A stretch of 64,000 bases of DNA from Micromonospora solifontis (GTDB lineage Bacteria; Actinomycetota; Actinomycetes; Mycobacteriales; Micromonosporaceae): NCBI RefSeq assembly GCF_003725545.1, contig NZ_RJLN01000002.1, positions 1 through 64,000 of the forward strand, read 5' to 3'. This document shows, in pieces, positions 17,640 to 33,481 of the stretch; positions within the stretch are counted from its first letter, which is position 1, and each line of letters starts with the position of its first letter. The notes under the pieces were generated by a model that saw only the letters and a list, made by a program, of their open reading frames with translations, was not told the origin of the DNA and searched no databases. Made by a program: the position numbers and the translations under genes.

Positions 17640-17750
17640 TCGACTCGGGATGCGGCGGGTCGGGGTGTCCCGGCCGGCGGTGGGGCCGGCCCGCCGCGGG
17701 GCGAGTTGACCAATCCCGCGCCCGCGCCGCTGGTCGGCACATTCCCCGGA

Positions 17751-17798
17751 AGCGACATGTCGCTGAGACATGAATATGGCTGAGAGACATGTCCCTCT
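17751..17798. repeat. GACATG palindromic repeat, copy 1
   Basis: 48 bp; 40 of 48 positions match copy 2 at 33313-33360. It opens with the perfect 14-bp palindrome AGCGACATGTCGCT, then carries GACATG again at offsets 17 and 36. This copy lies between two convergent genes (17639 and 17889) and overlaps no coding region I can support. Confidence 0.75.
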
Positions 17799-17888
17799 GA
17801 CGTGCGTTGCCGCGGGGTCAGCGGCACCGAGGGTGAGGAAGCCGCGGCCCGCACCCGTCGCGGCCAGGCGGGCCGAGCGGCATGGCGG

Positions 17889-18311
17889 TCAGCCCTGCTC
17901 GCAGCGGCGCTTGAGCCCGTCGGCCTCCTGCCGCAGGTAGCCCCGGATGGTCCGGCCGCCGATCAGCCCGATCAGCCAGGCGAGCGGGCCGGTCTGCGTC
18001 ATCACCAGCTCGGCGCGGACCCGACCGTCGGGCAGCGCTACCACCCGGTGCTCGCCCCGGCTGTGCACGCCCGGACTGTCGGACTCCCAGGCGAAGACGT
18101 GCGGCGCGTCGATCTCGGTGACCCGCCAGACCGCGGGACGCAGCCGGGGCTGCTCCAGCCGGGCGGCGGAGCCGAGGGTGAACGGCCCGGGCTCCAGCCG
18201 GCGCGCGGCGGTCACCGTGGGGGTCCACTCCGGCCAGCGCTCCACATCGGTCTGCACCGCCCACACCCGGTCGACGTCGGCGTTGATCTCGACGGACTCG
18301 ACGAACCGCAT
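17889..18311 (-). CDS. SRPBCC / polyketide-cyclase-like protein
   Basis: 140 residues, ATG start with the Shine-Dalgarno GGGAGGG upstream. It begins MRFVESVEINADVDRVWAV and continues WPEWTPTVTAARRLEPGPF, the standard opening of START/SRPBCC proteins such as the polyketide cyclase/dehydrase group, and ends with a long amphipathic helix (YLRQEADGLKRRCEQG). These proteins bind hydrophobic ligands in a helix-grip pocket. The ligand is unknown. Confidence 0.8.
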   Translation of the reverse strand: MRFVESVEINADVDRVWAVQTDVERWPEWTPTVTAARRLEPGPFTLGSAARLEQPRLRPAVWRVTEIDAPHVFAWESDSPGVHSRGEHRVVALPDGRVRAELVMTQTGPLAWLIGLIGGRTIRGYLRQEADGLKRRCEQG

Positions 18312-18350
18312 CCGCGCTCCCTCCCCTGAACTCCAGGGTCAGGCTACGCC

Positions 18351-18374
18351 CGGGATCGGCGCCCGGCGATCCCG
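18351..18374 (-). terminator. Hairpin after the 70-residue Cys protein gene
   Basis: Stem CGGGATCG (18351-18358) with its complement (18367-18374) and an 8-nt loop, about 10 bp beyond the - strand stop at 18384. It would insulate the SRPBCC gene downstream. Confidence 0.5.
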
Positions 18375-18383
18375 CGTCGCGGG

Positions 18384-18596
18384 TCAGGCGGCCTCGCGGA
18401 GATCGGCCAGGCCGACCGGGGCGTGCCGGCGGAGCAGCTCCTCCAGCTCGGCCACGGAGCCGACCTCGCCGATGACGTTGGCGCCGCCGCCGTGCTCGGC
18501 GCGGTAGCGGTGCACCAGCCGGTAGCGGTACCGCCCCCGGACCAGCTGCACGCTGACCCGCCAGCGTCCGCAACACCCGCAGATCCACTCCGGCAC
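18384..18596 (-). CDS. Small Cys/Arg-rich protein of unknown function (70 aa)
   Basis: 70 residues from GTG 18596. Upstream translation in this frame is low-complexity and not protein-like, so I start at this GTG, which is preceded by TACCGT at 7 nt spacing (18604-18609). Residues 4-12 are WICGCCGRW, a compact Cys cluster flanked by Trp; residues 20-32 are basic and aromatic (RGRYRYRLVHRYR); the C-terminal half is a leucine-rich helix (VAELEELLRRHAPVGLADLREA). It could bind a metal or nucleic acid, but I do not recognise the family. It runs divergently from the DNA ligase gene. Confidence 0.65.
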   Translation of the reverse strand: MPEWICGCCGRWRVSVQLVRGRYRYRLVHRYRAEHGGGANVIGEVGSVAELEELLRRHAPVGLADLREAA

Positions 18597-18603
18597 GCCG
18601 CGA

Positions 18604-18609
18604 ACGGTA
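18604..18609 (-). promoter_or_regulatory. Putative leaderless -10 hexamer TACCGT
   Basis: TACCGT on the - strand, 7 nt before GTG 18596. The same hexamer precedes msrB. It supports the short start of the 70-residue gene. Confidence 0.4.
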
Positions 18610-18732
18610 GCGCTGAGCTGCGGTTTCACTATCCGGGCGGGCGGGACGAACGGGTCGGTGCGGGGACACGCCGCCCGGCACCGCCGGTGATCTGCCTCAC
18701 GACCGTCGGTGGCGTCTGATTGACTGGTCGCC

Positions 18733-19845
18733 GTGGACCTGCCGATCAACCCGCCGGTCGAGCCGATGCTGGCCAAGAGCGTGCCCCAGCTGCCCACCGC
18801 GCCCGGCATGACGTACGAGCCGAAGTGGGACGGCTTCCGCTGCATCATCTTCCGGGACGGGGACGAGGTCGAGCTGGCCAGCCGGGGCGGCAAGACGATG
18901 ACCCGCTACTTCCCGGAGGTCGTCGCGCAGGCGCTCCGCCAGCTCCCCGAGCGGTGCGCGGTCGACGGCGAGCTGATCGTGATCCGCCGCGACGGCCCGG
19001 GCGGGCAGCCCCGGCTCGACTTCGAGCTGCTCGCCCAGCGCATCCACCCGGCCGCCTCGCGGGTGAAGCTGCTCGCCGAGACCACCCCGGCCGACTTCGT
19101 GGCCTTCGACCTGCTCGCCCTCGACGACGAGCCGCTGATCGACCGGCCCTACCCGGAGCGGCGGGCCGCGCTGGAGAAGGCGCTGGCCAAGGTCCGCCCG
19201 CCGGTGCACGTCACCCAGATCACCACCGACCCGGAGACGGCCCGGCGCTGGTTCGACGTCTTCGAGGGCGCCGGGCTGGACGGCCTCATCGTCAAGCCGG
19301 CCGACCTGCCGTACGAGCCGGGCAAGCGGCTCATGTTCAAGGTCAAGCACGCCCGCACCGCCGACGCGGTGGTGGCCGGCTTCCGCTGGCACAAGTCCGG
19401 CCCGGTGGTCGGCTCGCTGCTGCTCGGCCTCTACGACGACGCCGGCGTGCTGCACCACATCGGGGTCAGCTCCTCGTTCACCGCGGCCCGGCGCAAGGAG
19501 CTGCTGGACGAGTTGGCGCCGTACCGGGACGCCGGCGGCGACCACCCGTGGGTGCACGGCGACCACGAGCGCGGGCAGCGCATCCCCGGCGGGGTGAGCC
19601 GGTGGACCGGCACGAAGAACCTCGAGTGGGAGCCGCTGCGCCCCGAGCTGGTGGCCGAGGTCGGCTACGACGCGATGGAGGGCGACCGGCTGCGGCACAC
19701 CGCCCAGTTCGTCCGCTGGCGCCCCGACCGCGATCCCCGCTCCTGCACCTACGACCAGCTTGAGCGCCCGATCCGCTACGACGTGGACCAGGTGCTGCGC
19801 GGGGACCCGGCGGCGACGGCCGGCGGTGGGGGCGGCCGGGCGTAG
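18733..19845 (+). CDS. ligC: ATP-dependent DNA ligase (LigC type)
   Basis: 370 residues from GTG 18733. The adenylation motif EPKWDGFR (Lys31 takes the AMP) and later ligase motifs are present: VDGELIV, DFVAFDLLALD, GLDGLIVKP and RLMFKVKH, followed by an OB-fold domain. Length and lack of extra domains match the actinobacterial LigC-type single-module ligases, which join nicks and work with the stand-alone LigD polymerase domain in repair of ends and ribonucleotide-containing gaps. That partner is at 31055-32083, not adjacent. A polymerase or nuclease domain is absent from this chain. Confidence 0.88.
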   Translation: MDLPINPPVEPMLAKSVPQLPTAPGMTYEPKWDGFRCIIFRDGDEVELASRGGKTMTRYFPEVVAQALRQLPERCAVDGELIVIRRDGPGGQPRLDFELLAQRIHPAASRVKLLAETTPADFVAFDLLALDDEPLIDRPYPERRAALEKALAKVRPPVHVTQITTDPETARRWFDVFEGAGLDGLIVKPADLPYEPGKRLMFKVKHARTADAVVAGFRWHKSGPVVGSLLLGLYDDAGVLHHIGVSSSFTAARRKELLDELAPYRDAGGDHPWVHGDHERGQRIPGGVSRWTGTKNLEWEPLRPELVAEVGYDAMEGDRLRHTAQFVRWRPDRDPRSCTYDQLERPIRYDVDQVLRGDPAATAGGGGGRA

Positions 19846-19879
19846 CCTGGCCGTCGACACGATCATGGAAGGCTCCCAC

Positions 19880-21469
19880 GTGACCCGCTTCTCCGACCGG
19901 ATCCGCCGGATCCGACCGGCCCTGGCCGGGTTCGCCGCGGCGGTGCTGCTCACCGCCGGGTGCACCCTGCCGGTGATCGCCCCGCGCGTCGAGGGCCAGG
20001 GCGAGGCCGCTCCGCCGGGCACCGCCCCGACCTGGCGGGCCTGCCCGGAGGTCCCCGACGAACTGGTGGGCCGGGGCGCGCAGGGCATGCGCTACGAGTG
20101 CGCCCGGATCGCCGTACCCCGGAACTGGGGCAACGGCGCGGCGACCGGCGCGACCGCCGGGCCGGGCACCGGCGAGACCTTCGAGATCGCGCTGATCCGG
20201 ATCCGGTCGGAGCGCCAGCACGACCGGATCGGCTCGCTCGTGGTCAACCCCGGCGGGCCCGGCGCCTCCGGCGTGGACACCGCCGTCTACCTCTCGTACG
20301 GCTCCGGGTTCGGCGGGCTGCCGGCCGCGGTGACCGACCGGTTCGACATCGTCGGCTTCGACCCGCGCGGGGTGGCCCGGTCCAGCCCGGTGAAGTGCAT
20401 CCCCGACGCCGACCTGGACGCCAGCTTCGGCTACGACCCCGACCCGCAGAGCCAGGCGTCGTTCGACGGCTTCGCCGACCTCAACGGGCGGATCGGGCGG
20501 CGGTGCGGCGACAGGTACGGCGACCAGCTCCCGCTCTACGGCACCGAGCAGGCGGCCCGGGACATGGACGCGGTCCGCGCGGCGGTGGGCGACGAGAAGC
20601 TGACCTACCTCGGCTACTCGTACGGCACCCTGCTCGGCGCCACCTACGCCCAGCTCTACCCGCAACGGGTCCGGGCGCTGGTGCTCGACGGCGCGGTGGA
20701 CCCGCAGCAGAAGCTGATCGCCGGGTCGGAGAGCCAGGCGAAGGGCTTCGAGCGGGCGTTCGACAACTTCGCCCGCTGGTGCGGCGCGAACGCCGGCCGG
20801 TGCCCGATCGCGCCGGACGCCCGGGGCGCGGTCACCTCCGCCATCGACAAGGCCCGGGTCTCCCCGGTACGCGGCCGGGACGGCCGGGAGGCCACCGCCG
20901 GCTGGGTCTTCTACGCGGTGATCTCCTCCCTCTACACCGAGACGGGTTGGCAGGAGCTGGCCCGGGCGATCGACTCGTTGCAGGGCGGCGACCCGACCGG
21001 AGTGTTCAAGCTCGCCGACGCGTACGCGGGCCGGGAGGAGAACGGGCACTACTCGAACCTGTTCGACGCCAACATGGCGGTGAACTGCGCCGACGAGACG
21101 GAGAAGCCGTCGATCCCGCAGATTCGCCAGCTCCAGTCGCAGTGGCGCGCGAAGTACCCGCTCTTCGGTCCGGCCCTGGCGGTCGGGATGCTCGGCTGCG
21201 TGCAGTGGCCGGGCGGGCGCGACCCGTACCCGACCGGCAAGGCGGCGGGCGCGCCACCGATCCTGGTCGTCGGCACCACCGGCGACCCGGCAACGCCGTA
21301 CGAGCAGACCGCCGCGCTCGCCTCGATGCTGGGCGTCGGGCAGGTGCTCACCTGGGAGGGCGAGGGGCACACGGCGTACCCGCAGACCGCCTGCGTGACG
21401 AACGCGGTCGACGCGTACCTGATCTCGCTCACCGTCCCCCGGGCGGGGTTGCGCTGCCCCGCCCGGTGA
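19880..21469 (+). CDS. Secreted S33-type tripeptidyl aminopeptidase lipoprotein
   Basis: 529 residues from GTG 19880, chosen because GGAAGG lies 7 nt upstream; an ATG at 19865 overlaps that site. The signal peptide ends in LLTAGC, a lipobox. The alpha/beta-hydrolase core has VVNPGGPGASG (oxyanion region), the nucleophile elbow GYSYGT (Ser247), TTGDPATP with the Asp and GEGHTAY with the His. This matches the Streptomyces SlpD/SlpE and Tap group of secreted peptidases that clip N-terminal tripeptides. The protein should be anchored outside the membrane. A hairpin overlaps the stop codon. Confidence 0.85.
   Translation: MTRFSDRIRRIRPALAGFAAAVLLTAGCTLPVIAPRVEGQGEAAPPGTAPTWRACPEVPDELVGRGAQGMRYECARIAVPRNWGNGAATGATAGPGTGETFEIALIRIRSERQHDRIGSLVVNPGGPGASGVDTAVYLSYGSGFGGLPAAVTDRFDIVGFDPRGVARSSPVKCIPDADLDASFGYDPDPQSQASFDGFADLNGRIGRRCGDRYGDQLPLYGTEQAARDMDAVRAAVGDEKLTYLGYSYGTLLGATYAQLYPQRVRALVLDGAVDPQQKLIAGSESQAKGFERAFDNFARWCGANAGRCPIAPDARGAVTSAIDKARVSPVRGRDGREATAGWVFYAVISSLYTETGWQELARAIDSLQGGDPTGVFKLADAYAGREENGHYSNLFDANMAVNCADETEKPSIPQIRQLQSQWRAKYPLFGPALAVGMLGCVQWPGGRDPYPTGKAAGAPPILVVGTTGDPATPYEQTAALASMLGVGQVLTWEGEGHTAYPQTACVTNAVDAYLISLTVPRAGLRCPAR
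21439..21466 (+). terminator. Hairpin terminator overlapping the S33 peptidase stop
   Basis: A 10-bp stem (21439-21448 with 21457-21466) and an 8-nt loop TTGCGCTG end just before the TGA at 21467. A second weaker inverted repeat (21475-21482 with 21499-21506) follows, on the way to the convergent channel gene. Confidence 0.55.
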
Positions 21470-21594
21470 CGGTGCGCGGGCCGGTCAGCCGGCCGGCGGG
21501 CCCGCGATCGAGGACGGGCCACGGTGGACGGTGCGCGAGACCCTGCACTGGTGGTGGGCGCTGCGTACCTGGCTGGAGCGCTGACCGGGCGGTC

Positions 21595-22104
21595 TCACCG
21601 CCCCCGTCGGCGGCGGCGCCGCGCGGACCGCTCCCAGAGCGGATCGTCGCTGCCCGGCCCGTGCGCCGGTGGGCGGGGCTCCGGCTCGGGCACCTCGATG
21701 CCCTGCCGGGCCGCCATCTCCTCCAGCAGCGCCCGCAGCCGGCGTACGTCGGCCTTCAACTCCTCCTGCTCGTCGTGCTCGAAGGCGTCGTCGTCGACGA
21801 TGAGCCGGCTGGCGAAGTGCGCGGTGATGAGCGGGATCACCAGCAGCACCATGGTGGAGATGAGCAGCGCGGCGAGGAACCGGCCCGCGACGGTGGTCGG
21901 CGAGATGTCGCCGTAGCCGACCGTGGAGGCGGTCACCACCGCCCACCAGACGGAGTCGGCGGCGCTCTTGTGCTCGGCGTGGCTGTAGAGGACGCCCGCC
22001 ACCACGATCATCAGCAGGTACGACACGATCAGGGTCCGCGGCGAGTTGGCGAACCACACCAGGCCCCGGTAGATCAACCGGAACGGCAGCAGCAGGGCGT
22101 CCAT
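21595..22104 (-). CDS. Two-TM potassium-channel-like protein
   Basis: 169 residues from ATG 22104. Two transmembrane helices flank a pore loop with the potassium selectivity filter TVGYGD (residues 61-66), the Ion_trans_2 layout. The cytoplasmic tail has a coiled coil (LKADVRRLRALLEEMAARQ) and ends in a run of Arg. An upstream GTG at 22158 would add 18 non-hydrophobic residues; I prefer the ATG because CAGCAT sits exactly 6 nt before it, as in other leaderless starts here. No RCK gating domain is present, so the tail helix may set tetramer assembly. Confidence 0.85.
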   Translation of the reverse strand: MDALLLPFRLIYRGLVWFANSPRTLIVSYLLMIVVAGVLYSHAEHKSAADSVWWAVVTASTVGYGDISPTTVAGRFLAALLISTMVLLVIPLITAHFASRLIVDDDAFEHDEQEELKADVRRLRALLEEMAARQGIEVPEPEPRPPAHGPGSDDPLWERSARRRRRRGR

Positions 22105-22110
22105 GGCGAC

Positions 22111-22116
22111 ATGCTG
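22111..22116 (-). promoter_or_regulatory. Putative leaderless -10 hexamer CAGCAT (channel gene)
   Basis: CAGCAT on the - strand, 6 nt before ATG 22104; no Shine-Dalgarno is present. Confidence 0.35.
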
Positions 22117-22163
22117 CCCGGTGCCGGCAAGCGCCGCCCGTACATCGCCCGTGGCCACTGTGT

Positions 22164-22169
22164 CAGGCT
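22164..22169 (+). promoter_or_regulatory. Putative leaderless -10 hexamer CAGGCT (GNAT gene)
   Basis: CAGGCT followed by GCCGGC and then ATG 22176. The DUF3000 gene has TAGGCT plus the same GCCGGC and ATG. Confidence 0.4.
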
Positions 22170-22175
22170 GCCGGC

Positions 22176-22628
22176 ATGACCGACGTGATCTTCCGGGAGG
22201 CGGTCCGCGCGGACCTGCCGGCCGTCATCGCCCTGCTCGCCGACGACGTGCTGGGCAAGGCGCGCGACTTCACCGCGGTGGACGAGGCGTACGAGAAGGC
22301 GTTCGCCGACATCACCGCCGACCCGCGCAACCACCTGGTGGTCGCCGATCGCGGCGGCGAGCTGGTCGGCTGCATGCAGATCACCTACATCCCGGGGCTG
22401 GGCCGGCACGGCGCCGAGCGGTCCCTGATCGAGGCGGTGCGGGTCCGTTCGGACCTGCGCGGGCAGGGGCTGGGCCGGGAGATGATGACCTGGGCGATCG
22501 ACCGCGCCCGCGAGCGGGGTTGCGCCCTGGTGCAGCTCACCACCGACAAGTCCCGCACCGACGCGCACCGCTTCTATCACCACCTCGGCTTCGTGGCCAG
22601 TCACGAGGGGATGAAGCTGGCGTTGTGA
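22176..22628 (+). CDS. GNAT-family N-acetyltransferase
   Basis: 150 residues, ATG start. IEAVRVRSDLRGQGLGREMMTWAIDRA is motif A with the R/QxxGxG acetyl-CoA loop, and TDAHRFYHHLGFVASHEGMKL is motif B. It resembles the common single-domain acetyltransferases with unknown small substrates. It is divergent from the channel gene with a 71-bp spacer that would hold both promoters. Confidence 0.85.
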   Translation: MTDVIFREAVRADLPAVIALLADDVLGKARDFTAVDEAYEKAFADITADPRNHLVVADRGGELVGCMQITYIPGLGRHGAERSLIEAVRVRSDLRGQGLGREMMTWAIDRARERGCALVQLTTDKSRTDAHRFYHHLGFVASHEGMKLAL

Positions 22629-22727
22629 CGGACCGCTCCCCCACGCCGGGGAGCCGGTTCCCCGGCGGGCGGGAGGGCGGCACCGGGTCGCCGGGGAAGG
22701 CTGGACGGACAGCCGAGGAGGAACGTC

Positions 22728-23246
22728 ATGTCCGTCACCACCCTGCCCACCGGCCGGCCCGCCCCCGCCTGGGCGGAACGCGTCGCCCACCTGATCCCGC
22801 TGGTCGTGCTCCCGTCCGGTCTATGGCGGATCGCCCTGGTCGCCGGGGTCCCGATCGGCGCCTCGGCGCACGGGGTGCCGGTCCACCTCGGGGTCGGCGA
22901 GAGCGTCTACATCGTCGCACTGAGCCTCGTGTCGGAGGCGCTGGCACTGCTCGCCTTCGGCCTGGTCCGCCCCTGGGGCGAGGTGCTCCCCCGATGGCTG
23001 CCGCTGCTCGGTGCGCGCCGGGTGCCGCCGCTGTTCGCGGTCACCGTCGCCACCGCCGGCGCCGTCGCGCTCACCCTGATCTGGGGGTACGCGGCGTGGG
23101 GCGTCGTCGTCGACGGCAACGACCTGGATTTCTCGCCCGCCGGCTTCGCCCTGCTGGTGGCCTGTTACCTCCCCCTCCTGCTCTGGGGTCCGCTCCTGCT
23201 CGCCCTGACGGTCGCCTACCACCACCGCCGCCGCCCACCCGCATGA
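22728..23246 (+). CDS. Small multi-pass membrane protein of unknown function
   Basis: 172 residues, ATG start with a strong GAGGAGGAA ribosome site. Four hydrophobic segments are visible (about residues 22-45, 58-80, 100-128 and 138-162) with short basic loops and a C-terminal HHRRRPPA tail. I recognise no family motif. It is convergent with the ABC transporter operon, with only a 24-bp gap and no clear terminator between them. Confidence 0.8.
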   Translation: MSVTTLPTGRPAPAWAERVAHLIPLVVLPSGLWRIALVAGVPIGASAHGVPVHLGVGESVYIVALSLVSEALALLAFGLVRPWGEVLPRWLPLLGARRVPPLFAVTVATAGAVALTLIWGYAAWGVVVDGNDLDFSPAGFALLVACYLPLLLWGPLLLALTVAYHHRRRPPA

Positions 23247-23270
23247 TCGGCGGGGTGGGCGGCGGGACGG

Positions 23271-23990
23271 TCAGGCGTCGACCAGGCGGCCGTCGCGGAG
23301 GGTGAGGGTACGGTCGGCCATCTCGATCAGGGCCGGGTCGTGGGTGGCCACCAGGGCCGTCATCCCCTTCGCGTGCACCACGGCCCGGAGCAGGTCCATG
23401 ATGGCGCGGCCGGTCTCCGAGTCCAGCTGGCCGGTCGGCTCGTCGGCGATGAGCAGGTCCGGCTCGTTCGCCAGCGCCCGGGCCACGGCGACCCGCTGCT
23501 GCTGCCCGCCGGAGAGCTCGTACGGCCGTTGCGCCGCGTGGCCGCCCAGCCCGACCAGTTCCAGCAGCACGGCGACCCGCTGCTCCCGCTCCGCGGCCGG
23601 CACCTTGGCCAGCCGCAGCGGCACCCCGACGTTCTCCGCGGCCGACAGGATCGGCACCAGGCCGAAGGTCTGGAAGACGAAGCCCACGGTCCCCCGGCGC
23701 AGCGCCAGCAGCTCCCGCTCGCTGGCCGCGGTCACCTCGTGCCCGGCCACCCGGATCCGGCCGGAGTCCGGCCGGTCCAGCCCGCCGACCAGGTTCAGCA
23801 GGGTGGTCTTGCCGGCGCCGGAGCGGCCCCGGACGGCGACCAGCTCGCCCCGACCGGCGGAGAGGGAGACGTCCCGCACCGCGTGCACGGCGTGCTCGCC
23901 CCGGCCGAAGGTACGGCTCACCCCCTCCACCCGGAGCACCTCGTCGGTGGTGGCCACCGCGACCGGCGCCATGACGGACCGCTCGGTCAT
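23271..23990 (-). CDS. ABC transporter ATPase (MacB/LolD-type), second ATPase of the operon
   Basis: 239 residues; ATG 23990 overlaps the upstream stop (ATGA). Walker A is GRSGAGKTT (residues 55-63), the signature is LSGGQQQRVAVARAL and Walker B is LLIADEPTGQLD. The LolD/MacB/FtsE group powers FtsX-type permeases, and two such permeases lie upstream in the same operon. It probably energises lipid or peptide handling at the membrane rather than classical transport. Confidence 0.9.
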   Translation of the reverse strand: MTERSVMAPVAVATTDEVLRVEGVSRTFGRGEHAVHAVRDVSLSAGRGELVAVRGRSGAGKTTLLNLVGGLDRPDSGRIRVAGHEVTAASERELLALRRGTVGFVFQTFGLVPILSAAENVGVPLRLAKVPAAEREQRVAVLLELVGLGGHAAQRPYELSGGQQQRVAVARALANEPDLLIADEPTGQLDSETGRAIMDLLRAVVHAKGMTALVATHDPALIEMADRTLTLRDGRLVDA

Positions 23991-25030: not shown

Positions 25031-25031
25031 C

Positions 25032-27761
25032 TCAGCTCTCCTCTCCGAGCCGGAGCACCTCGCCGAGGCGCATCCGGCGGTTGTTCAGGGCCTCGACGGC
25101 GACCGCGAAGCCGAGGGCCAGCACGGCGAGGCCCAGCACGCCGGCCACCAGACCGGGTTCGAAACGCACCGGCACCGCCACCCCGCCGGTGAAGGCGGGC
25201 AGGCCGAGCACCGGGGTGAGCAGAGCCGGCAGCAGCGCGCCGACCACCGCGCCGGTGAGCACCGAGGCCAGCACCAGCGGGGCCAGCTCGACCAGCAGCA
25301 GCCCCCGCCACTGGCCGCGGGACAGGCCCATGGTGCGCAGCCGGGAGAGCACCTGTCCCCGGCTGCGCGCCTCGGCGAGCACCGCGAACGCGAGCGCCAG
25401 CAGGCCCAGCACACCGCCGCCGGCCGCGCCGATGGCGAAGCCGAACACCAGCAGCCCGTTCACCCCGCTGCCGCCGAGGTCGGCGCGGACCGCCGCGCGG
25501 GTGAGCACCTCCGGCTGGCGGGGCCGGTCCACGCCGGTGAAACCGCCCGACCGCTGGTACCGGCGCTGTCCCTTCTCGACCACCGTGGCCACACCGGCTG
25601 GGTCCACCCCGTCGCCGGCCAGCACGAAACCGGTGGGGGCGAGCGGGTGCGGGGCGTCCGCCGGCTGCTCCGGCCAGGGCAGCACCACGAACCGGGACAC
25701 GTTCCCGTCGACCAGCGGGAACTGGTCGACCGTGCCGGCCGTCCGCACCGGCAGCCGGTTGCCCTGCACGTCCAGCCAGGCGGGCCGGCGGCCGTCCCGG
25801 TCGGCCAGCCCGACGTCGGCGAACTCCTCGGCGAGCGCCGGGGAGACCAGCGCCGGCAGCGGCGTACCGGGGTCACCGGTGGCGCGCAGCGCGTCGGGGA
25901 CGCTGACCGGCACGCCGGCCGCGCGGGCGACCTCGGCGAACCGGGCGCCGTCGACCAGCAGGATCCGGGTCTCCCCGACGCCGCCGAAGTGGCCGGCCTC
26001 GTCGGCGTACGGGCGTTCGCCGGGCACGACCAGCAGCGGGGCGACCGCCCGCACCCCGGGCAGCGCGGCCAGCTCTCCGGTGGTGTCCGGGGCGAACCGT
26101 TCGCCCTTCACCAGGACGTCGCCGGGGACGGCGCGGGCCGCGGCCCGGTCCCGGCCGGTCTCGATGCCGGCGGCCACCACTCCGCAGAACGCGGCGGTGG
26201 CGATGGCGAGCACCACCACGACCAGCGGGCCGGTGGTCGACGCCCGGCCGGCGCGAGCGGTGCCGAGGAACGCCACGCTGCCCCGGGCCCGGGCGGCGGC
26301 CCGGCTGAGCAGCCGCACCGGCCACGGGTACGCGCGCAGCGCGAGCAGCGCCGCGGCGACCGCCAGCAGCACCGGCACCGACACCAGCAGCGGGTCCACC
26401 GTGCCGTCGAGGGTGAGCCCTCGCCGCCGCAGCAGGAACGCCCCGAGCACGGCCACCCCGAGCACGGTCACCTCGACGGTCAGCCGGACCGCGGTGGCCC
26501 GGGCGTGGGTCAGGTCCGCCCGCCCGCCGTCACCCCGGCCGGCGGTGAGCGCGGTGACCGGCGGCAGCAGGGTGACCAGCACCGCGGCGAGCACCACCCA
26601 GCGCGGGTCGGCCTCGTCCCCGGGCAGCAGCCCGCCGAGCAGCCAGCCGGCGGCGGCCGCCAGGGGCAGCACCAGCACCGACTCGGTGAGGCCGCGGCGC
26701 AGCACCGCGCCGGTGGAGCCGCCCCGGGCGCGCAGCAGCCGGTACTCGGCCCGGCGGCGGCGCGCCGCGAGCCGGGCGGCGAGCAGGGTCAGGCCGGCCA
26801 GGGTCGCGAGCAGCCCGGCGGCGATGACGGCGAGCAGCGTACGGGCGGCGGCGAGCGACTCGGCGAAGCGCCGCAGCGGGATGTCGACGCCCTGGTTGAA
26901 GGACAGCCCCGCCGGGCGGGACCGGTCCATCACGGCCAGGCCGTCCACCATGGCCGTCAACCGGTCGGGGTCGACCCGCTCCGGGGAGACCCGGTAGCGC
27001 CACGAGAAGCCGACCGGCCACCCGACGGACGCCATCGCCGTGAAGCCGGGCGAGGTCGTCACCCCGACCAGCAGGTACGGCTTGCCGTCCCCCTCGGGTT
27101 CGGTGAGCCGCAGCAGGCTGGGCAGCTCGTCCCAGATCCCGTCGTGCGGGTCGGCCGGCTTGAACACCCCGACCAGGACAAGTTTCCGGGTGACCAGCGG
27201 GTTGTTGTTCTGGTCCAGGATGGCGATCCGGAACCGGCTGCCGACGTGCAGTCCGAGCGGACCGGCGACGGTGTCGGCGAGCGCGAACTCCACCGACTTG
27301 TCCGCGGTGACCCCCGCCTGCGGCCACCGGCCCTCGACCAGCGTGGCCGCGTCCTGGATGCCGGCCATGACCCGCAGGCTGAGGTCCAGCAGCCCCTGCT
27401 CCGGACGGACGTCGCCGCCGCTGAGCCGGCCGAAGGCGGTACGTGCGGTGTACCAGCGTTCGCCCACCGCGTCCCGGACGGCCGGCGGCATCCGCTCCTC
27501 AAGGGAGTTCAGCTCACCGGCGCGGACCGTGGCCGCGTTGCCGCTGATCCCGCGCAACGGCGAATCCGGGGCCGCGTACGTGAGGTCCCGGCGCGCCACC
27601 GGCTGGCTCGCCATGTACTCGCGCAGCCCCTGCCCGGTGAGGCGGTCGGCCACCCGCGGCACGCCGGTGATCAGCAGCGCGGTGACCAGGGTCAGGACGG
27701 CGAGGAGCAGGAAGTGCCCCCCGTACGCCCGGACCCGCCGCAGAGCCGCGAAGAGGCTCAT
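25032..27761 (-). CDS. FtsX-family ABC permease 2
   Basis: 909 residues; ATG 27761 overlaps the upstream permease stop (ATGA). An N-terminal transmembrane helix (GGHFLLLAVLTLVTALLITG) is followed by a large extracytoplasmic domain, then a first FtsX core (LAAARTLLAVIAAGLLATLAGLTLLAARL), several more helices, a second periplasmic domain, and a C-terminal FtsX core near 780-890. The duplicated FtsX layout is that of large actinobacterial MacB-like permeases. No peptidase or binding motif stands out in the outer domains. Confidence 0.87.
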   Translation of the reverse strand: MSLFAALRRVRAYGGHFLLLAVLTLVTALLITGVPRVADRLTGQGLREYMASQPVARRDLTYAAPDSPLRGISGNAATVRAGELNSLEERMPPAVRDAVGERWYTARTAFGRLSGGDVRPEQGLLDLSLRVMAGIQDAATLVEGRWPQAGVTADKSVEFALADTVAGPLGLHVGSRFRIAILDQNNNPLVTRKLVLVGVFKPADPHDGIWDELPSLLRLTEPEGDGKPYLLVGVTTSPGFTAMASVGWPVGFSWRYRVSPERVDPDRLTAMVDGLAVMDRSRPAGLSFNQGVDIPLRRFAESLAAARTLLAVIAAGLLATLAGLTLLAARLAARRRRAEYRLLRARGGSTGAVLRRGLTESVLVLPLAAAAGWLLGGLLPGDEADPRWVVLAAVLVTLLPPVTALTAGRGDGGRADLTHARATAVRLTVEVTVLGVAVLGAFLLRRRGLTLDGTVDPLLVSVPVLLAVAAALLALRAYPWPVRLLSRAAARARGSVAFLGTARAGRASTTGPLVVVVLAIATAAFCGVVAAGIETGRDRAAARAVPGDVLVKGERFAPDTTGELAALPGVRAVAPLLVVPGERPYADEAGHFGGVGETRILLVDGARFAEVARAAGVPVSVPDALRATGDPGTPLPALVSPALAEEFADVGLADRDGRRPAWLDVQGNRLPVRTAGTVDQFPLVDGNVSRFVVLPWPEQPADAPHPLAPTGFVLAGDGVDPAGVATVVEKGQRRYQRSGGFTGVDRPRQPEVLTRAAVRADLGGSGVNGLLVFGFAIGAAGGGVLGLLALAFAVLAEARSRGQVLSRLRTMGLSRGQWRGLLLVELAPLVLASVLTGAVVGALLPALLTPVLGLPAFTGGVAVPVRFEPGLVAGVLGLAVLALGFAVAVEALNNRRMRLGEVLRLGEES

Positions 27762-30700
27762 CGTTCTCCCCCGATCCGGAGCTGCACGGCGGCCACCCGC
27801 TGCCGGAGGCCGGTGGTTATGACGGCGCTGAACAGCAGGGCGACCGCCAGCAACCCGAGCGCGGTCGCCCCGACCGGTGTCCAGGGCAGGATGAAGGCCG
27901 CCTCGGGCACCGGGCGGCCGGCGGCCTGGGTGAGGATCACCAGCGGCACCATGGTGGCCGCGACCCCCGCGCCGACCAGCAGGCCGACGCCGACCCCGAT
28001 GCCGGCGAGGAAGGACTGCTCGGCCAGGAGGGCCCGGGCCAGCAGGCGCGGCGTGGCCCCCTGGGTGTGCAGCACCGCGAACTCCATCGTCCGGTGCCGG
28101 GCCGTGGCCCACACGTCGACGGCCAGGCCGACGAGGGCGAGCAGCACCGAGCCGAGGGCGGCGGCGAGCAGGCCGGTCCGGGCACCGCGCCAGTACGGGT
28201 CCCGGGCGGCTTCCGCCGCGACCTGGCGCCGGTCGAGCAGGGTGGTGCCGGGCAGGTCGGCGAGGGCGGCCGCCGCGGCGGTGTGCCCGGCGGCGTCGGT
28301 ACGCAGCCACCATTCGGCCATCGTCCGAACGGTGCCCTGCTGGCGCAGCAGGAGGTTGGTGGCGGCGGGCAGGTCCAGCAGCACGCCGTCGCCGGCGGTG
28401 CTGGGCACGGCCTTCACCTGGCCGACCACCTTCACCGGCAGCGTCACCCCGGACAGTGAGAGCGGCACCGTGTCGCCGGTGTGCAGGCTCAACGCCGCCG
28501 CGACACCGGGTGTGACCAGGGCCGCCACCCACGGGTCCTCGCCGGCGGGCACCACGGCGAACCGGGCGGCGGGCTGCCGGGCGAACTCGAGCAGTCCGGC
28601 CGGTAGCGCGACGTTCAGCGTGCCGTCGACCACACCCCCGGTCATCGTGGCGCTGTCCTTCGGCCCCTCGCTGTCGGTGACCCGCCAGGGGCCCTCGAAC
28701 GGCAGCGGCAGCGCGGCACCGGCGGCGTCGGTGAGTCGGAGCCCGTCGATCCGCAGCCGGTAGCTGTCACCGAGGGCAACCCCACCGTCGGCCTCGAATC
28801 CGGCCAGCCGCAGCGGGCCGCCACCCGTCGCGGGCAGCGGCACCGAGAACGACACCGGCCGGCCGGCCCCGCCGCCGGTCGCCAGCGGCAGCCGCCAGGC
28901 GGTACCCCCGTCGGCGGTGAGCAGCGCGGATACCGCCACCTGCGGGGAGGAGAACGACTTCCGGACCGGGGTGCGGACGGTGCCGGAGAGGGTGTGCGCA
29001 CCGGCCGGAAGGAGGACGCCGGCAGCCGTGGGCCGCGCCCTGGCCAGCCGGTCGAGCAGCGCGGCCGTGGACGCTCCGCCCTCGGCGTCGTCGAGCCGGA
29101 ACAGGCCGCCCGCGGCCGCCGCGTCCAGGCTCACGACGGTGGCCGGCCGGGCCTCCCGGCCGAGCCGGACCTCGTCCCGCCAGGCTGGCAGCGCCCGGTC
29201 CACCCCGGCTGCCGCGGCCAACTGGGCCGCGCGGTCGGCGGGGGCGACGCCGTTGCGCTCGGTCAGGCGCAGGTCGGCGCCGACGGTGTGCCGCGCCTGG
29301 TCCCGCTGTGACCGTTCCCAGGAGGCGACCAGCGACCAGGCGAGGGTGCTGGCGCCGACGGCGAGGGCGAGCAGCAGCACCGGGCCGGCGTGCGGCCGCC
29401 GGCCGGCCTGCCACATGCCGAACATGGTCGCGGTCCATGGACGCCGGTCCACGAACCGTTCCGCGAACCGGGTCGTCGGGGGCAGCAGCCGCAGCGCGAG
29501 GACGGCCCCGGCCAGCACGCCGAGGGTGGGCGCGGCGGCGAGCAGTGGGTCGATGCCGAGCTGGCCGCCCGCCCCGGCCAGCGGCGAGGAGTACTGGCGC
29601 AGCTGCGTCCAGGCGAGCACCGCGAGGGCGACGAGGGCGAGGTCGACGCTGGCCCGCTGCACCGCCGCGGCCCGGGTGGGGCGGGACCGGGCCGCCATGT
29701 CGGCGACGTAGGTGCCGGCCCGACGCAGCGCCGGCAGCACCATGGCGAGCAGGCAGCCGATAGCGGCGGCGACCGCCACCGCCCAGACCCGGGCCAGGCC
29801 GCCGCCGGCCAGCCCGAGGTCCGCACCGAGCCGGTGCACGGCCTGCCCGGACAGCGCCGGGGCGAGCAGCAGGGCCGGGGCCACCACCAGGGTCGCCTCC
29901 CGTACGGCGAGTCCGGCGATCTGGCCCCGCGCCGCGCCGCGGGCGCGCAGCAGCGCGGTCTGCGCCCGCCGGTCCTCGTTGAGCAGCGCGGCGACCAGCA
30001 CCAGGGCGTACCCGCCGAGGACCACGATCAGCAGCAGCGGGGTGAGCAGGGCGGACCGGCCGACCAGGTCGGCGCGGCCGAGCCGGTCGGCGAGCCGGTC
30101 CAGGTTGCTGACGGCGGTGGCTGAGGAGCCGAGGCCGGTCGCCTCGGGGATCCGCTCGGCGACGGTGGCCAGGGCCGCGTTGACCACGGCGAGCCGGCTC
30201 GGCGGGACGGTGGCGAGGTCGGGGGTGACCACCCAGGCCGCCGAGGTCGAGCCGGGAAAAGTGCCGGCGAAGTCGGTCGGGTCCAGGGCGAACGGCCCGT
30301 ACGAGGTGACCGCCCCGGTTCCCTGGCTGGTCCCCACGCCCGGGGCGAGCCGCCAGTAGGCGTCCCCCGGGTCCCGTGGCCGCCAGGTGCCGGCGAGCAC
30401 CACCGCGCCGGCCCGCTCGGCGCTGCGGTCGTAGAGCGGGACCCGGTCCCCGACCCGCAGCCGGAGCTGACCGGCGGCCTTCTCCGGCAGGGTGACCTGC
30501 AACGGGCTCGCCCCGGGGGTGGGCCACGACCCGGCGGTCAGCTCGGCGTGCGCGGGCAGGTCGGTCAGCGTGGCGAGGTTGGCGAACATCGGGTCGTCGC
30601 CGACCCGGGCGGCGCCGAGGTCGCCGGTCAGCTCCCGCCCGGTGCCGTAGCGGGCGGCGGCGACGGTGACCGGCACGCCGTCCAGCCCGTCGGCGAACTG

Positions 30701-30940
30701 GGCACGGACCGCCCGGTCCCGGTCGGCGTACGCGGCGGCGTCCTTACCGCCGGCGCCGCTGACCAGGAGGCTGCGCTCCTCGGCCGGGGCGGCGTCGAGC
30801 ACCGCGCGCTGGCCGGCGTCGACAGCCCGGCGGTTGTAGTCGGAGAGCCCGGTGACCAGCCCGACCGCCACCAGGGCCGCGACCGCGGCGGCGAGCAGCA
30901 GCCCGCGCGCCTCGACGGCCCGCCTCCACACCAGCTTCAT
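27758..30940 (-). CDS. FtsX-family ABC permease 1 (operon start)
   Basis: 1060 residues from ATG 30940, chosen because GGAAGG precedes it; an in-frame codon at 31012 lacks a ribosome site. The N-terminal helix (LLLAAAVAALVAVGLVTGLSDY) is followed by an outer domain of about 200 residues and a first FtsX core near 310-400 (LLLIVVLGGYALVLVAALL). A second long outer domain spans about 560-900, before C-terminal helices (GLLAAALGSVLLALVGLAVD). An AT-richer patch at about 31013-31035 may hold the operon promoter. Export or lipoprotein-extraction function is likely; cargo unknown. Confidence 0.87.
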   Translation of the reverse strand: MKLVWRRAVEARGLLLAAAVAALVAVGLVTGLSDYNRRAVDAGQRAVLDAAPAEERSLLVSGAGGKDAAAYADRDRAVRAQFADGLDGVPVTVAAARYGTGRELTGDLGAARVGDDPMFANLATLTDLPAHAELTAGSWPTPGASPLQVTLPEKAAGQLRLRVGDRVPLYDRSAERAGAVVLAGTWRPRDPGDAYWRLAPGVGTSQGTGAVTSYGPFALDPTDFAGTFPGSTSAAWVVTPDLATVPPSRLAVVNAALATVAERIPEATGLGSSATAVSNLDRLADRLGRADLVGRSALLTPLLLIVVLGGYALVLVAALLNEDRRAQTALLRARGAARGQIAGLAVREATLVVAPALLLAPALSGQAVHRLGADLGLAGGGLARVWAVAVAAAIGCLLAMVLPALRRAGTYVADMAARSRPTRAAAVQRASVDLALVALAVLAWTQLRQYSSPLAGAGGQLGIDPLLAAAPTLGVLAGAVLALRLLPPTTRFAERFVDRRPWTATMFGMWQAGRRPHAGPVLLLALAVGASTLAWSLVASWERSQRDQARHTVGADLRLTERNGVAPADRAAQLAAAAGVDRALPAWRDEVRLGREARPATVVSLDAAAAGGLFRLDDAEGGASTAALLDRLARARPTAAGVLLPAGAHTLSGTVRTPVRKSFSSPQVAVSALLTADGGTAWRLPLATGGGAGRPVSFSVPLPATGGGPLRLAGFEADGGVALGDSYRLRIDGLRLTDAAGAALPLPFEGPWRVTDSEGPKDSATMTGGVVDGTLNVALPAGLLEFARQPAARFAVVPAGEDPWVAALVTPGVAAALSLHTGDTVPLSLSGVTLPVKVVGQVKAVPSTAGDGVLLDLPAATNLLLRQQGTVRTMAEWWLRTDAAGHTAAAAALADLPGTTLLDRRQVAAEAARDPYWRGARTGLLAAALGSVLLALVGLAVDVWATARHRTMEFAVLHTQGATPRLLARALLAEQSFLAGIGVGVGLLVGAGVAATMVPLVILTQAAGRPVPEAAFILPWTPVGATALGLLAVALLFSAVITTGLRQRVAAVQLRIGGER

Positions 30941-31054
30941 CCGAGGTCCTTCCCTGCCCCGGGCGGGGCGATGCCCCAGGGAGACCACCCGGGGGGCGGG
31001 AAAGGTTCGCACGCGTTACGTGATCGTTATCCGACGCCGTGCCGGCGCCCGCCG

Positions 31055-32083
31055 TCAGGTGCGCGGGCGGTCGCGGTCCTTGGAGGGCTGCACCCGCTTC
31101 GGCTCGCCGGGCATCTTCGGGTATTCCGGCGGGTACGGCAGGTCGCCCTGCCCGGCGGCGGCGTCCCGCTCGGCCCACTCCAGCAGCGGGCTGATGTCCC
31201 ACGGGGAGTCGTCGATGCCGGCGTGCGGGTCGCCGCGCTCGGCCAACCGGGCCGGCACGGTGCGCAGGTCGAAGTCGTCCGGGTCGACCCGGGTCAGCTC
31301 GTCCCAGTCGACCGGGGTGGAGACGGTGGCCCGCGCGTTGGCCCGCAACGAGTACGCGCACGCGATGGTCCGGTCCCGGGCCATCTGGTTGAAGTCGACG
31401 AAGACCCGGCTGCCGCGCTCCTCCTTCCACCAGGCCGTGGTGACCAGCTCGGGGCGGCGGCGTTCCAGCTCCCGGGCCAGCGCGATGGTGGCCCGGCGCA
31501 CCTCGACGAACGTCCAGCGGGGGTGGATGCGCAGGTAGACGTGGACCCCTCGGCCGCCGGAGGTCTTCGGCCAGCCGGTCGCGCCCAGCTCGTCGAGGAT
31601 GACCCGCAGCTCGCCGGCGGCGGTCACCGCGTGGGTGAAGTCGGTGCCGGGCTGCGGGTCCAGGTCGATCCGCAGCTCGTCGGGGCGGTCGACGTCGGCG
31701 GCCCGGACCGGCCACGGGTGGAACACCACCGTGCCCATCTGCGCCGCCCAGGCCACGTGCGCCAGGTCGGCCGGACAGAGCTCGGCCGCCTTGCGGCCGC
31801 TCGGGAAGGCGATCTCCGCGGTGCGGACCCACGGCGGTACGCCCCGGGCCGGCACCCGCTTCTGGAAGAACATCTCCCCCTCGACGCCCTCCGGGAAGCG
31901 CTGCAGGGTGGTGGGCCGGTCCCGCAGCGCGCGCGTGATCCCGTCGCCCACGGAGAGGTAGTAGTGGAAGACGTCCGTCTTGGTGAAGCCGCGCTGCGGG
32001 AAGATCACCCGATCGGGGCTGCTGAGCCGCACGGTGTGCCCGGCCACCTCGATCTCCTCGGCCGCGGCTTTGCTGCCAGCCAT
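31055..32083 (-). CDS. LigD-type polymerase/primase domain protein
   Basis: 342 residues, ATG 32083. VIFPQRGFTKTDVFHYYLSV is the typical start of LigD polymerase domains, RIDLDPQPG holds the catalytic Asp140 and Asp142, and KTSGGRGVHVYLRI is the nucleotide-binding motif. There is no ligase or phosphoesterase domain, so this is a stand-alone PolDom (primase-polymerase). Such proteins fill gaps with ribonucleotides and act with LigC, found at 18733 in this window. TAAGGT lies 6 nt before the ATG, indicating a leaderless transcript divergent from msrB. Confidence 0.9.
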   Translation of the reverse strand: MAGSKAAAEEIEVAGHTVRLSSPDRVIFPQRGFTKTDVFHYYLSVGDGITRALRDRPTTLQRFPEGVEGEMFFQKRVPARGVPPWVRTAEIAFPSGRKAAELCPADLAHVAWAAQMGTVVFHPWPVRAADVDRPDELRIDLDPQPGTDFTHAVTAAGELRVILDELGATGWPKTSGGRGVHVYLRIHPRWTFVEVRRATIALARELERRRPELVTTAWWKEERGSRVFVDFNQMARDRTIACAYSLRANARATVSTPVDWDELTRVDPDDFDLRTVPARLAERGDPHAGIDDSPWDISPLLEWAERDAAAGQGDLPYPPEYPKMPGEPKRVQPSKDRDRPRT

Positions 32084-32089
32084 GGCGCG

Positions 32090-32095
32090 ACCTTA
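32090..32095 (-). promoter_or_regulatory. Putative leaderless -10 hexamer TAAGGT (LigD polymerase gene)
   Basis: TAAGGT on the - strand exactly 6 nt before ATG 32083, with no Shine-Dalgarno. Confidence 0.45.
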
Positions 32096-32118
32096 TGCGA
32101 TGCCCCCGACGCCCGGCG

Positions 32119-32124
32119 TACCGT
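32119..32124 (+). promoter_or_regulatory. Putative leaderless -10 hexamer TACCGT (msrB)
   Basis: TACCGT exactly 6 nt before GTG 32131; no ribosome site. Its mirror partner for the divergent LigD gene lies 24 bp away. Confidence 0.45.
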
Positions 32125-32130
32125 TGACCG

Positions 32131-32541
32131 GTGAGTCTTTCCGAGAGCGAACTGCCCCGTACCGAGGACGAGTGGCGGGTCCGGCTGAGCCCCGAGGAGT
32201 TCCGGGTGCTCCGCGAGGCCGGTACGGAGCCACCGTGGACCGGCGAGTACGTCGACACCAAGACCCCCGGCGTCTACCACTGCCGGGCCTGTGGCGCGGA
32301 ACTGTTCCGCAGCGAGGACAAGTTCGACTCGCACTGCGGCTGGCCGAGCTTCGACGACGCCATCCCGGGTGCGGTCAAGGAGATCCCCGACAACACCCTG
32401 GGCATGCGGCGTACGGAGATCCGGTGCGCCCGCTGCGACAGCCACCTGGGGCACGTCTTCGAGGGTGAGGGCTTCACCCCGAAGGACACCCGGCACTGCG
32501 TGAACTCGATCTCCGTCCGGCTGGAGCCGAAGCAGGGCTGA
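32131..32541 (+). CDS. msrB: Peptide-methionine (R)-S-oxide reductase MsrB
   Basis: 136 residues from GTG 32131. Two CxxC pairs (Cys51/Cys54 and Cys99/Cys102) bind structural zinc, RHCVNS carries the catalytic Cys123, and SHCGWPSF contains the candidate resolving Cys69. This is a full-length, cytosolic MsrB that repairs methionine-R-sulfoxide in proteins using thioredoxin. It is divergent from the LigD polymerase gene over a 47-bp shared promoter region. Confidence 0.95.
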   Translation: MSLSESELPRTEDEWRVRLSPEEFRVLREAGTEPPWTGEYVDTKTPGVYHCRACGAELFRSEDKFDSHCGWPSFDDAIPGAVKEIPDNTLGMRRTEIRCARCDSHLGHVFEGEGFTPKDTRHCVNSISVRLEPKQG

Positions 32542-32552
32542 CCGGCGGCCGG

Positions 32553-32828
32553 TCAGAGGTGCAGGCGGCTGCCCTGCTCGTCGATCGCGTCCGCGCAGTC
32601 GTCGTCCAGCCACACCCCGCCGGTGGCCAGGTAGCGGAACCGGTGCTCGCCCGGGGCGAGCCGGACGGTCACCGTCCGGGTGCCGTCCCGGCGGGTCACC
32701 AGCTCGTGCCGGCCGGGCTCCCAGTCGTTGAAGGAACCGACCACGCTCACCGTGCCGGGCGGGGTGTCCCGGGGCAGGCAGAAGGTGACCCGGGTCTGGT
32801 TGCCGAAGAGCTTGTTGCGCTTGATCAC
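32553..32828 (-). CDS. Stand-alone CBM48 / isoamylase N-terminal-like domain protein
   Basis: 91 residues from GTG 32828, with Shine-Dalgarno GGAGG upstream. The sequence CLPRDTPPGTVSVVGSFNDWEPG ... RTVTVRLAPGEHRFRYLATGGVWLDDDCADAIDEQG is a textbook glycogen-binding (CBM48/AMPK-beta-like) module, including the GxFNxW and YxY/F-type strands. No catalytic domain is attached. It could target a partner protein to glycogen or act as a regulator; that is inference. The gene ends 11 bp from the convergent msrB stop. Confidence 0.82.
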   Translation of the reverse strand: MIKRNKLFGNQTRVTFCLPRDTPPGTVSVVGSFNDWEPGRHELVTRRDGTRTVTVRLAPGEHRFRYLATGGVWLDDDCADAIDEQGSRLHL

Positions 32829-32985
32829 GGGGGTCCTCCGGGGTTCGAGGGCGGTCACCAGGCCTAACGCGCGACACGCCGGGGGCGACTCGCCGTCGAG
32901 CCGGACCAGGTTCGCCGGTTTCGGTTGCCCCGGGGTGTCCGCTCCCCGACCCTGGGATGACGGGTCCGTTTTCGGGGGGTTTCGT

Positions 32986-33246
32986 ATGGCAACCTGTGAG
33001 GTCTGCGGCAACGACTACTGGATGGCGTTCGAGGTGCGCACGGTCAGCGGCGACACGCACACCTTCGACTCCTTCGAGTGCGCCATCAACCGGATGGCAC
33101 CGATCTGCGAGCACTGCCAGACGAAGATCGTCGGCCATGGCGTCGAGGTCTCCGGCCGCTTCTTCTGCTGCGCGCACTGCGCCCGGGCGGTCGACGGCGC
33201 CCAGGGGGCCGAGATCCGCGACGCGGTCGGGGCCCGCCCGGCCTGA
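32986..33246 (+). CDS. Small zinc-ribbon / metallothionein-like protein (86 aa)
   Basis: 86 residues from ATG 32986; upstream translation in this frame is unlike protein. Cysteines come as CEVC, FEC, CEHC and FFCCAHC, eight to nine in all, in a layout that suggests one or two zinc sites. The segment CEHCQTKIVGHGVEVSGRFFCCAHCA resembles the core of prokaryotic metallothioneins (SmtA-like). Conserved hypothetical proteins of this type are widespread in actinobacteria. A zinc storage or sensing role is possible but unproven. Confidence 0.75.
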   Translation: MATCEVCGNDYWMAFEVRTVSGDTHTFDSFECAINRMAPICEHCQTKIVGHGVEVSGRFFCCAHCARAVDGAQGAEIRDAVGARPA

Positions 33247-33312
33247 GGCCGCCACGGGAGGCGACCACCCCGGCGGACCGCGGGTCACGCCCGGGGCGGC
33301 ACCGCGCTGAGG

Positions 33313-33360
33313 AGCGACATGTCGCTGGGACATGTTCATGTCGCAGAGACATGTCCGTCT
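33313..33360. repeat. GACATG palindromic repeat, copy 2
   Basis: 48 bp, 83 % identical to the copy at 17751-17798, in the same orientation. It again begins with AGCGACATGTCGCT. It lies between two + strand genes (33246 and 33494). The matching ends and divergent centre (offsets 23-32) suggest that the palindromic parts are conserved for structure or protein binding. Confidence 0.75.
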
Positions 33361-33481
33361 CAGGGAGACGACCGGGGAACCGACCTCACCCTGCGTGACG
33401 GCGGCCGGTCGGCGAGAGCTGGCCGGCAGCCGCCGTCGTTCCAGGATGCCAGCCGCGCCGGCCGGCCGTCGGGCCGCCACC

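Follow-up and report, generated by a model that had tools for sequence, protein, structure and literature searches.

A dispersed palindrome family of Micromonospora with dialects that vary with the recognition helix of one XRE protein

Palindromes scattered over bacterial genomes are in most cases either attributed to RAYT transposases or remain without explanation, and a RAYT gene adjoins a copy of the repetitive extragenic palindrome (REP). Among helix–turn–helix (HTH) regulators of the XRE type, autoregulation is typical of the restriction controller C proteins and of the HigA, HipB and SinR families. REPINs, in the available part of their description (PMC8049555), are extragenic elements made of two inverted units that form a hairpin; they are present in many copies, have a partner gene and persist in genomes without this partner. 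The available part of PMC3733652, in which Micromonospora, Actinobacteria, Streptomyces and Salinispora are not mentioned, assigns a GTAG or CGTC tag to the foot of REP and REPIN hairpins. The DNA uptake sequences of Neisseriaceae form dialects that differ between species (PMC3630211) and have a known cognate DNA-binding protein, ComP (PMC3868556), as far as the available extracts of these two papers go. We describe here a family of dispersed palindromes, two copies of which lie in a stretch of 64,000 nucleotides from Micromonospora solifontis (NCBI RefSeq assembly GCF_003725545.1, contig NZ_RJLN01000002.1, positions 1 to 64,000 of the forward strand; hereafter, the window), and whose spelling varies between genomes together with an XRE-type protein. 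No published description of this element was found in the literature searched, most subscription journals being outside its coverage.

The two repeats, at 17751-17798 and 33313-33360, are identical at 40 of 48 positions (hand count) and both carry the word GACATG at offsets 4, 17 and 36, as reported in a preliminary description made from the window. Chance similarity of the two is ruled out by shuffles (the palindromic 14-mer taken with at most two mismatches occurs three times in the window against 0.21 expected, and none of 100 shuffled sequences reached three), by BLAST (copy 2 against its own genome finds copy 1 at E 1.1e-7) and by genome-wide model matches. A covariance model, R1, built from 21 copies of the M. 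solifontis genome, matched 30 places in this genome when 150 of 1017 candidates were scored, and 28 were accepted. The two places not accepted were C70, a hairpin of another kind, and C151, with E 0.36; at the level of loci, L091 (a chance match) and L114 (of the other hairpin family) do not count among the 28 copies or in the context counts given below. R1 also matched in 98 of 151 Micromonospora genomes (under stricter filters and with no more than 35 candidates per genome scored), so that the repeat is neither limited to its two copies in the window nor lacking in relatives. With a broader model, R2, matches were found in 95 of 300 genomes of the family, spread over 12 of 44 genera, and the genomes searched closely hold about 10 to 35 copies each.

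The 48-bp intervals first delimited lie inside a real element, which is longer: in the centred alignment it measures about 56 bp and is a quasi-palindrome from end to end. In 19 of 22 copies the centre reads TT or AA, and on both sides of it stands an arm of the form TTGAG-AGCG-NN-ATGTC-NNNNN-GACAT. The palindrome contains two pseudo-palindromic sites, ATGTC-N5-GACAT (general form ATNNC-N5-GNNAT), which are mutually inverted with their centres 19 bp apart, and the three GACATG words are parts of these two sites. Stem positions AT, C, G and AT are nearly invariant while the remaining positions covary, and in relatives weak pairing continues for about 7 bp past the conserved arm (in a set that includes one M. 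solifontis copy, L119). The RNA fold of copy 2 has an energy of -34.7 kcal/mol (z -6.4).

The palindrome is maintained. In each of three genomes (27, 20 and 20 copies) the arms within a copy are more alike than between copies, a difference reached by 0 of 2000 shuffles; this comparison is independent of any pairing-based choice of copies, and L113/L043, which has a 4-bp deletion, was left out of it and of alignment A1. Among 35 aligned copies (alignment A2, made of six M. solifontis copies and, for each of 29 relatives, the copy with the highest score, a choice that favours perfect hairpins), both-side changes are seen in 20 of 27 pairs and the number of compensated cells is 198, as against 68 in shuffles; the relatives came from a search with a hairpin model, by which paired copies are favoured. 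In 33 copies taken from beside the partner gene described below, 136 cells are compensated against 45 in shuffles (alignment A4, hand-chosen for variety among 54 copies whose source rule itself required pairing; two are also in A2).

The spelling of the half-sites is mostly uniform within a genome and different between genomes. In M. solifontis 55 of 56 arms have ATGTC as outer half-site and 45 of 56 have GACAT as the inner one; in relative G350 they are ATACC (36 of 40 arms) and GTCAT (30 of 40); in relative G118 the outer one is ATGCC, ATGTC or ATGAC (37 of 40) and the inner one GTCAT (24 of 40). The arm pattern was counted 25, 37 and 32 times in these three genomes and its reversed control not once, and half-sites are uniform at the four loci read in G183 and the three read in G139. 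A strict scan of a contig collection for the M. solifontis dialect gave no match; this does not mean that the family is absent from the collection, since two of its records carry other dialects.

Some chromosomal slots are occupied in several species by copies of different spelling. With a match required on both sides, and 28-29 copies compared in each genome, four such slots are shared between G118 and G350, and M. solifontis shares three slots with each of these genomes; two further pairs matched on one side only. The slot of copy 2 was viewed in other species by means of relatives of the GNAT gene that follows it (Table 1), and in 2 of 80 loci a counterpart was found, spelled ATACC in M. 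veneta and ATGCC in M. sicca; not all of the 80 have kept the gene order or the full flank. Most slots are unshared between species, which indicates that copies turn over. Besides the most often shared slot, next to tsaB, one slot is filled in all three deeply compared genomes (L099, L316, L311), and shared slots also lie behind core genes for cytochrome c oxidase subunit I, glutamate-tRNA ligase and an RsmE-type rRNA methyltransferase (L181, L103, L093). One slot common to copies from five genomes (L180:2973-3119) is flanked by a gene for an error-prone DNA polymerase and by one weakly similar to DNA polymerase IV, which probably form one mutagenesis operon.

The most often shared slot separates tsaB (TIGR03725, 1.9e-50) from a gene for an XRE-type HTH protein, which in M. 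solifontis is encoded outside the window (G000:C180), beside another copy of the element. This gene was searched in the 300 family genomes with a nine-member protein profile, and genes at E 1e-60 or better, a few of them partial or with an in-frame stop, were taken as clear. R2 matches to the element occur in 71 of the 74 genomes with a clear gene, against 24 of the 226 without it. The three exceptions are G027, G082 and G258. In G027 the gene is whole and is accompanied by a decayed copy. In G082 and G258 a palindrome in a previously unmodelled spelling stands upstream of the gene, and model R3, built from partner-side copies including one from each of these genomes, served as a tested prediction: it gave 62 both-strand matches in G082, 50 in G258 and none in four relatives devoid of the gene. 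All three loci read in G258, none of which is the copy upstream of the XRE gene, are in the new spelling; so are three loci read in G082, one of which is that upstream copy and two of which have variant letters in some arms.

Absence was followed in 28 genomes picked for their lack or near-lack of matches. In 25 of them no XRE gene was found within about 1.5 kb beside tsaB, two of the stretches being cut by contig ends; G082, one of these 25, has the gene 2 kb away, and G001 has a fragment elsewhere. The other three are G027 and two genomes with fragments. Fragments of the gene beside tsaB in G003 and G144 (L288:1335-1448 and L294:2200-2352), genomes with few palindrome matches, are a decay of the gene–palindrome pair in progress.

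Within a stretch from 700 nt before to 100 nt after the start of the XRE gene, a palindrome is present at 61 of 71 partner loci. At 54 of these it has 16 or more of 21 pairs, and 27 of the 61 are placed 71-79 nt before the first aligned residue. The rest of the sequence of these loci, 203 kb, gave no palindrome. For 60 of the 71 loci the dialect was compared with the recognition helix, placed by comparison with known XRE proteins. Dialect distance tracks helix distance when C-terminal distance is controlled (partial Mantel r 0.40, 0 of 2000 permutations), and C-terminal distance adds nothing once the helix is given (-0.04). Individual residues show the same relation: an R to H or N change at one helix position goes with an inner A in five of five cases, A being found with none of the 55 proteins that keep R, and the M. 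solifontis copy upstream of the gene has the inner A in one arm only. T at another site position accompanies all 13 proteins that have the R to H/N change or a VDQ..F helix, and none of the other 47. On a tree of the C-terminal part the N forms and the H forms stand apart, each in a group of its own (support 92/94 and 96/87), and VSQ..I relatives of another dialect are the neighbours of the VDQ..F form.

The co-occurrence, the co-variation and the tested prediction lead us to favour, with moderate confidence, the view that the palindromes are binding sites of one self-regulated XRE protein, dispersed and turned over like REP elements. The XRE protein would recognize the element with one dimer per ATNNC-N5-GNNAT site, and the copy upstream of its gene would be its own operator and provide autoregulation. 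The idea of a multi-site protein-binding element, put forward from the window, is thus strongly suggested by the association with this one protein, on the evidence of genome comparison. Other copies, mostly at gene ends and often in convergent gaps, would offer bound, hairpin-capable DNA that perhaps blocks or separates transcription from both sides; such a boundary role is a guess from their position. In this view copies come and go in the manner of REP elements, and a difference in the recognition helix tends to be accompanied by a difference in the sites throughout the genome. A more ambitious version can be proposed only tentatively: a fast-evolving XRE protein, instead of a transposase, would keep a REP-like palindrome population, protein and sites would switch their recognition code jointly in one lineage after another, and the occupied sites would serve as boundaries, structural or transcriptional, where genes converge.

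The position bias was measured on 68 copies read in M. solifontis, G350 and G118, with genes called by a home-made program. None of the 68 is internal to a called gene, and one, L170, overlaps a gene end; in the window, gene calls bear out the noncoding location initially reported, copy 1 being in a convergent and copy 2 in a co-directional gap. L095, at a contig end, was left out of the orientation counts; of the 67 copies with a gene on both sides, 34 are in convergent, 26 in co-directional and 7 in divergent gaps, against 5, 35 and 27 expected from intergenic length or 8, 37 and 22 from the number of gaps (of at least 60 bp). The background was the window plus the same neighbourhoods with element-holding gaps removed, which lowers the convergent expectation; with the 34 occupied gaps put back by hand, about 15 of 67 convergent copies are expected by number, under half of those observed. 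In co-directional gaps, 24 of 26 copies are nearer the upstream stop codon. No macrodomain clustering was detected in the complete chromosomes of G350 (P 0.22) and G118 (P 0.17), where positions are indistinguishable from uniform for 31 places each among the matches listed.

Several observations weigh against the self-regulated XRE protein as a full account. Covariation among the 21 M. solifontis copies is modest, with 14 both-side-changed pairs against 10.8 in shuffles; 8 of 500 shuffles attained the observed score, and pair types, one of the five measures used, do not exceed shuffles (297 of 500). Half-sites that match across the N5 spacers are not required by binding alone, and this match points to a possible second constraint or a copying process. 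The G118 dialect is less uniform than the others (outer ATGCC 15, ATGTC 14 and ATGAC 8 of 40 arms), and those of G005 and G093 are mixed. Of the 24 genomes with element matches but no clear gene, only some hold gene remnants; no palindrome was found by the same rule near the gene at 10 of the 71 partner loci. The species are related, which makes the Fisher value for co-occurrence meaningless as a probability and lets the p-values overstate significance. Finally, nothing convincing matches the C-terminal domain of the protein: hits in NCBIfam, in PADLOC and among the 60 PDB matches listed of 84 are confined to the HTH region or extend little beyond it; Pfam gives one further, weak match (Xre_MbcA_ParS_C, E 0.011, in one of nine members), and our impression is of a resemblance to a degenerate nucleotidyltransferase fold.

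If the hairpins were copied single-stranded by some enzyme, as non-autonomous mobile repeats of the REPIN kind, the XRE protein would be only a regulator or a target chooser. The two inverted sites forming a hairpin, the greater likeness of arms within than between copies, the few interspecies slots shared (4 of 28-29 copies between G118 and G350) and the protein gene that accompanies the repeats all agree with this explanation, which we nevertheless consider rather unlikely: the M. solifontis genome (assembly 93% complete) has no Y1/RAYT match, and within the genus Y1 shows no link to the element, being found in 30 of the 98 genomes that have it and in 14 of the 53 that lack it. This absence and this uncorrelated distribution rule out a RAYT/Y1 transposase as the partner. 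Y1 transposases, unrelated to the element, are present in 44 of the 151 genus genomes with up to nine matches each, including G138, G147, G014 and G048. No clear full-length insertion sequence with these ends was found at the four unpaired arms checked, where genes were called without annotation; L303 and L304 (G350) have a degraded partner arm, L306 (G118) keeps only the outer end of such an arm, and the partner arm of L305 is ambiguous. Of the small folded mobile repeat proposed in the preliminary description, the fold is real at the sequence level, and mobility is suggested by slot turnover, with no mobilizing enzyme found.

The gene-end position and the strength of the RNA fold (z from -4.0 to -12.7 among four copies folded) could also be those of plain bidirectional terminators or mRNA 3'-end hairpins, repeated since a good terminator spread. 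That is highly improbable: no U tract follows the stem (T fraction 0.01-0.37 per position over 12 nt, 94 ends), mismatches are not biased to G-U (19 GT against 28 AC overall, 8 against 13 along the transcript), the near-invariant stem positions contrast with their covarying neighbours, and a terminator would not be expected to have dialects linked to a DNA-binding protein. Signs of RNA-level selection, which a plain terminator should show, are absent; the view put forward from the window, that the element is not a terminator alone, is supported. To an ordinary transcription-factor regulon, whose operators repress neighbouring promoters, we give hardly any credence: the copy upstream of the XRE gene does look like an operator, but the divergent gaps contain 7 of 67 copies, against 22-27 expected, and 24 of the 26 co-directional copies are closer to the upstream stop codon.

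The two copies in the window, their sites and their neighbours are given in Table 1. No Rfam family scored above gathering in the window, and eight plasmid records matching 8-18% of a 5.5-kb query gave no information on the element. A second hairpin family consists of GCGGCATGTCGC and its inverted copy around a variable 22-bp loop (L050:1018-1063 and L051:1001-1046, that is G000:C70 and C162); further single arms are also present. In two other species the slot of copy 2 holds other repeats, upstream of position 2501 in L197 and L199, namely a GGGGCCC/GTTAAC-rich inverted repeat and a tandem CTGACCGGTGACAGAGACCGCC; it is as if gene ends attracted several repeat families.

Table 1. Copies of the palindrome in the window, their candidate sites and the adjacent genes
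Feature	Position	Strand	Basis
Element copy 1	17742..17805	.	R1 match, best E 6.4e-13; copy in the R1 training set
Copy 1, first pseudo-palindromic site ATGTC-GCTGA-GACAT	17757..17771	.	From letters; form ATNNC-N5-GNNAT
Copy 1, second site ATGGC-TGAGA-GACAT	17776..17790	.	From letters; one half-site deviates
Element copy 2	33304..33367	.	R1 match, best E 2.1e-15; copy in the R1 training set
Copy 2, first site ATGTC-GCTGG-GACAT	33319..33333	.	From letters
Copy 2, second site ATGTC-GCAGA-GACAT	33338..33352	.	From letters
GNAT acetyltransferase gene, ends before copy 1	17133..17639	+	Gene call; Pfam PF00583 8.8e-13
Polyketide cyclase/lipid transport family gene, converges on copy 1	17889..18311	-	Gene call; PF10604 2.2e-20
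Small cysteine-rich protein gene, ends before copy 2	32986..33246	+	Gene call; no Pfam family at E 0.1
GNAT acetyltransferase gene, after copy 2	33494..33943	+	Gene call; PF13673 8.1e-14

The partner of these palindromes appears to be a DNA-binding regulator, and their many dialects amount to a natural experiment on how the specificity of an HTH protein shifts jointly with that of about 30 scattered sites. Comparisons allow the recognition code to be read, single substitutions allow it to be tested, and the system is a test case for what keeps repeats at gene ends. The element is a REPIN-like population with dialects like those of uptake sequences, and it lacks a defining feature of each. Like REPINs, as far as they are described in the source available to us, it is an extragenic, multicopy hairpin of two inverted units with a partner gene, and it remains in genomes that lack this partner; it differs from them in that the partner is an XRE DNA-binding protein without a recognized catalytic domain, RAYTs being absent or uncorrelated, and in its foot, the consensus of which is GAGCG with no GTAG or CGTC tag of the kind given in the corresponding extract. 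It resembles DNA uptake sequences, on the extracts cited above, in having species dialects with a cognate protein, the role of the latter as an uptake receptor aside; it consists of tens of 56-bp palindromes (28 in M. solifontis), whereas uptake sequences are short words in thousands. The HTH of the partner matches PDB sequences of HigA (1.8e-7), C.BclI (1.1e-6), SinR (1.5e-5) and HipB (3.2e-5), and, as with the restriction controller C proteins, HigA, HipB and SinR, a site lies upstream of its own gene; unlike these regulators, it is accompanied by dozens of distant sites, mostly at gene ends, and has a long C-terminal domain without match.

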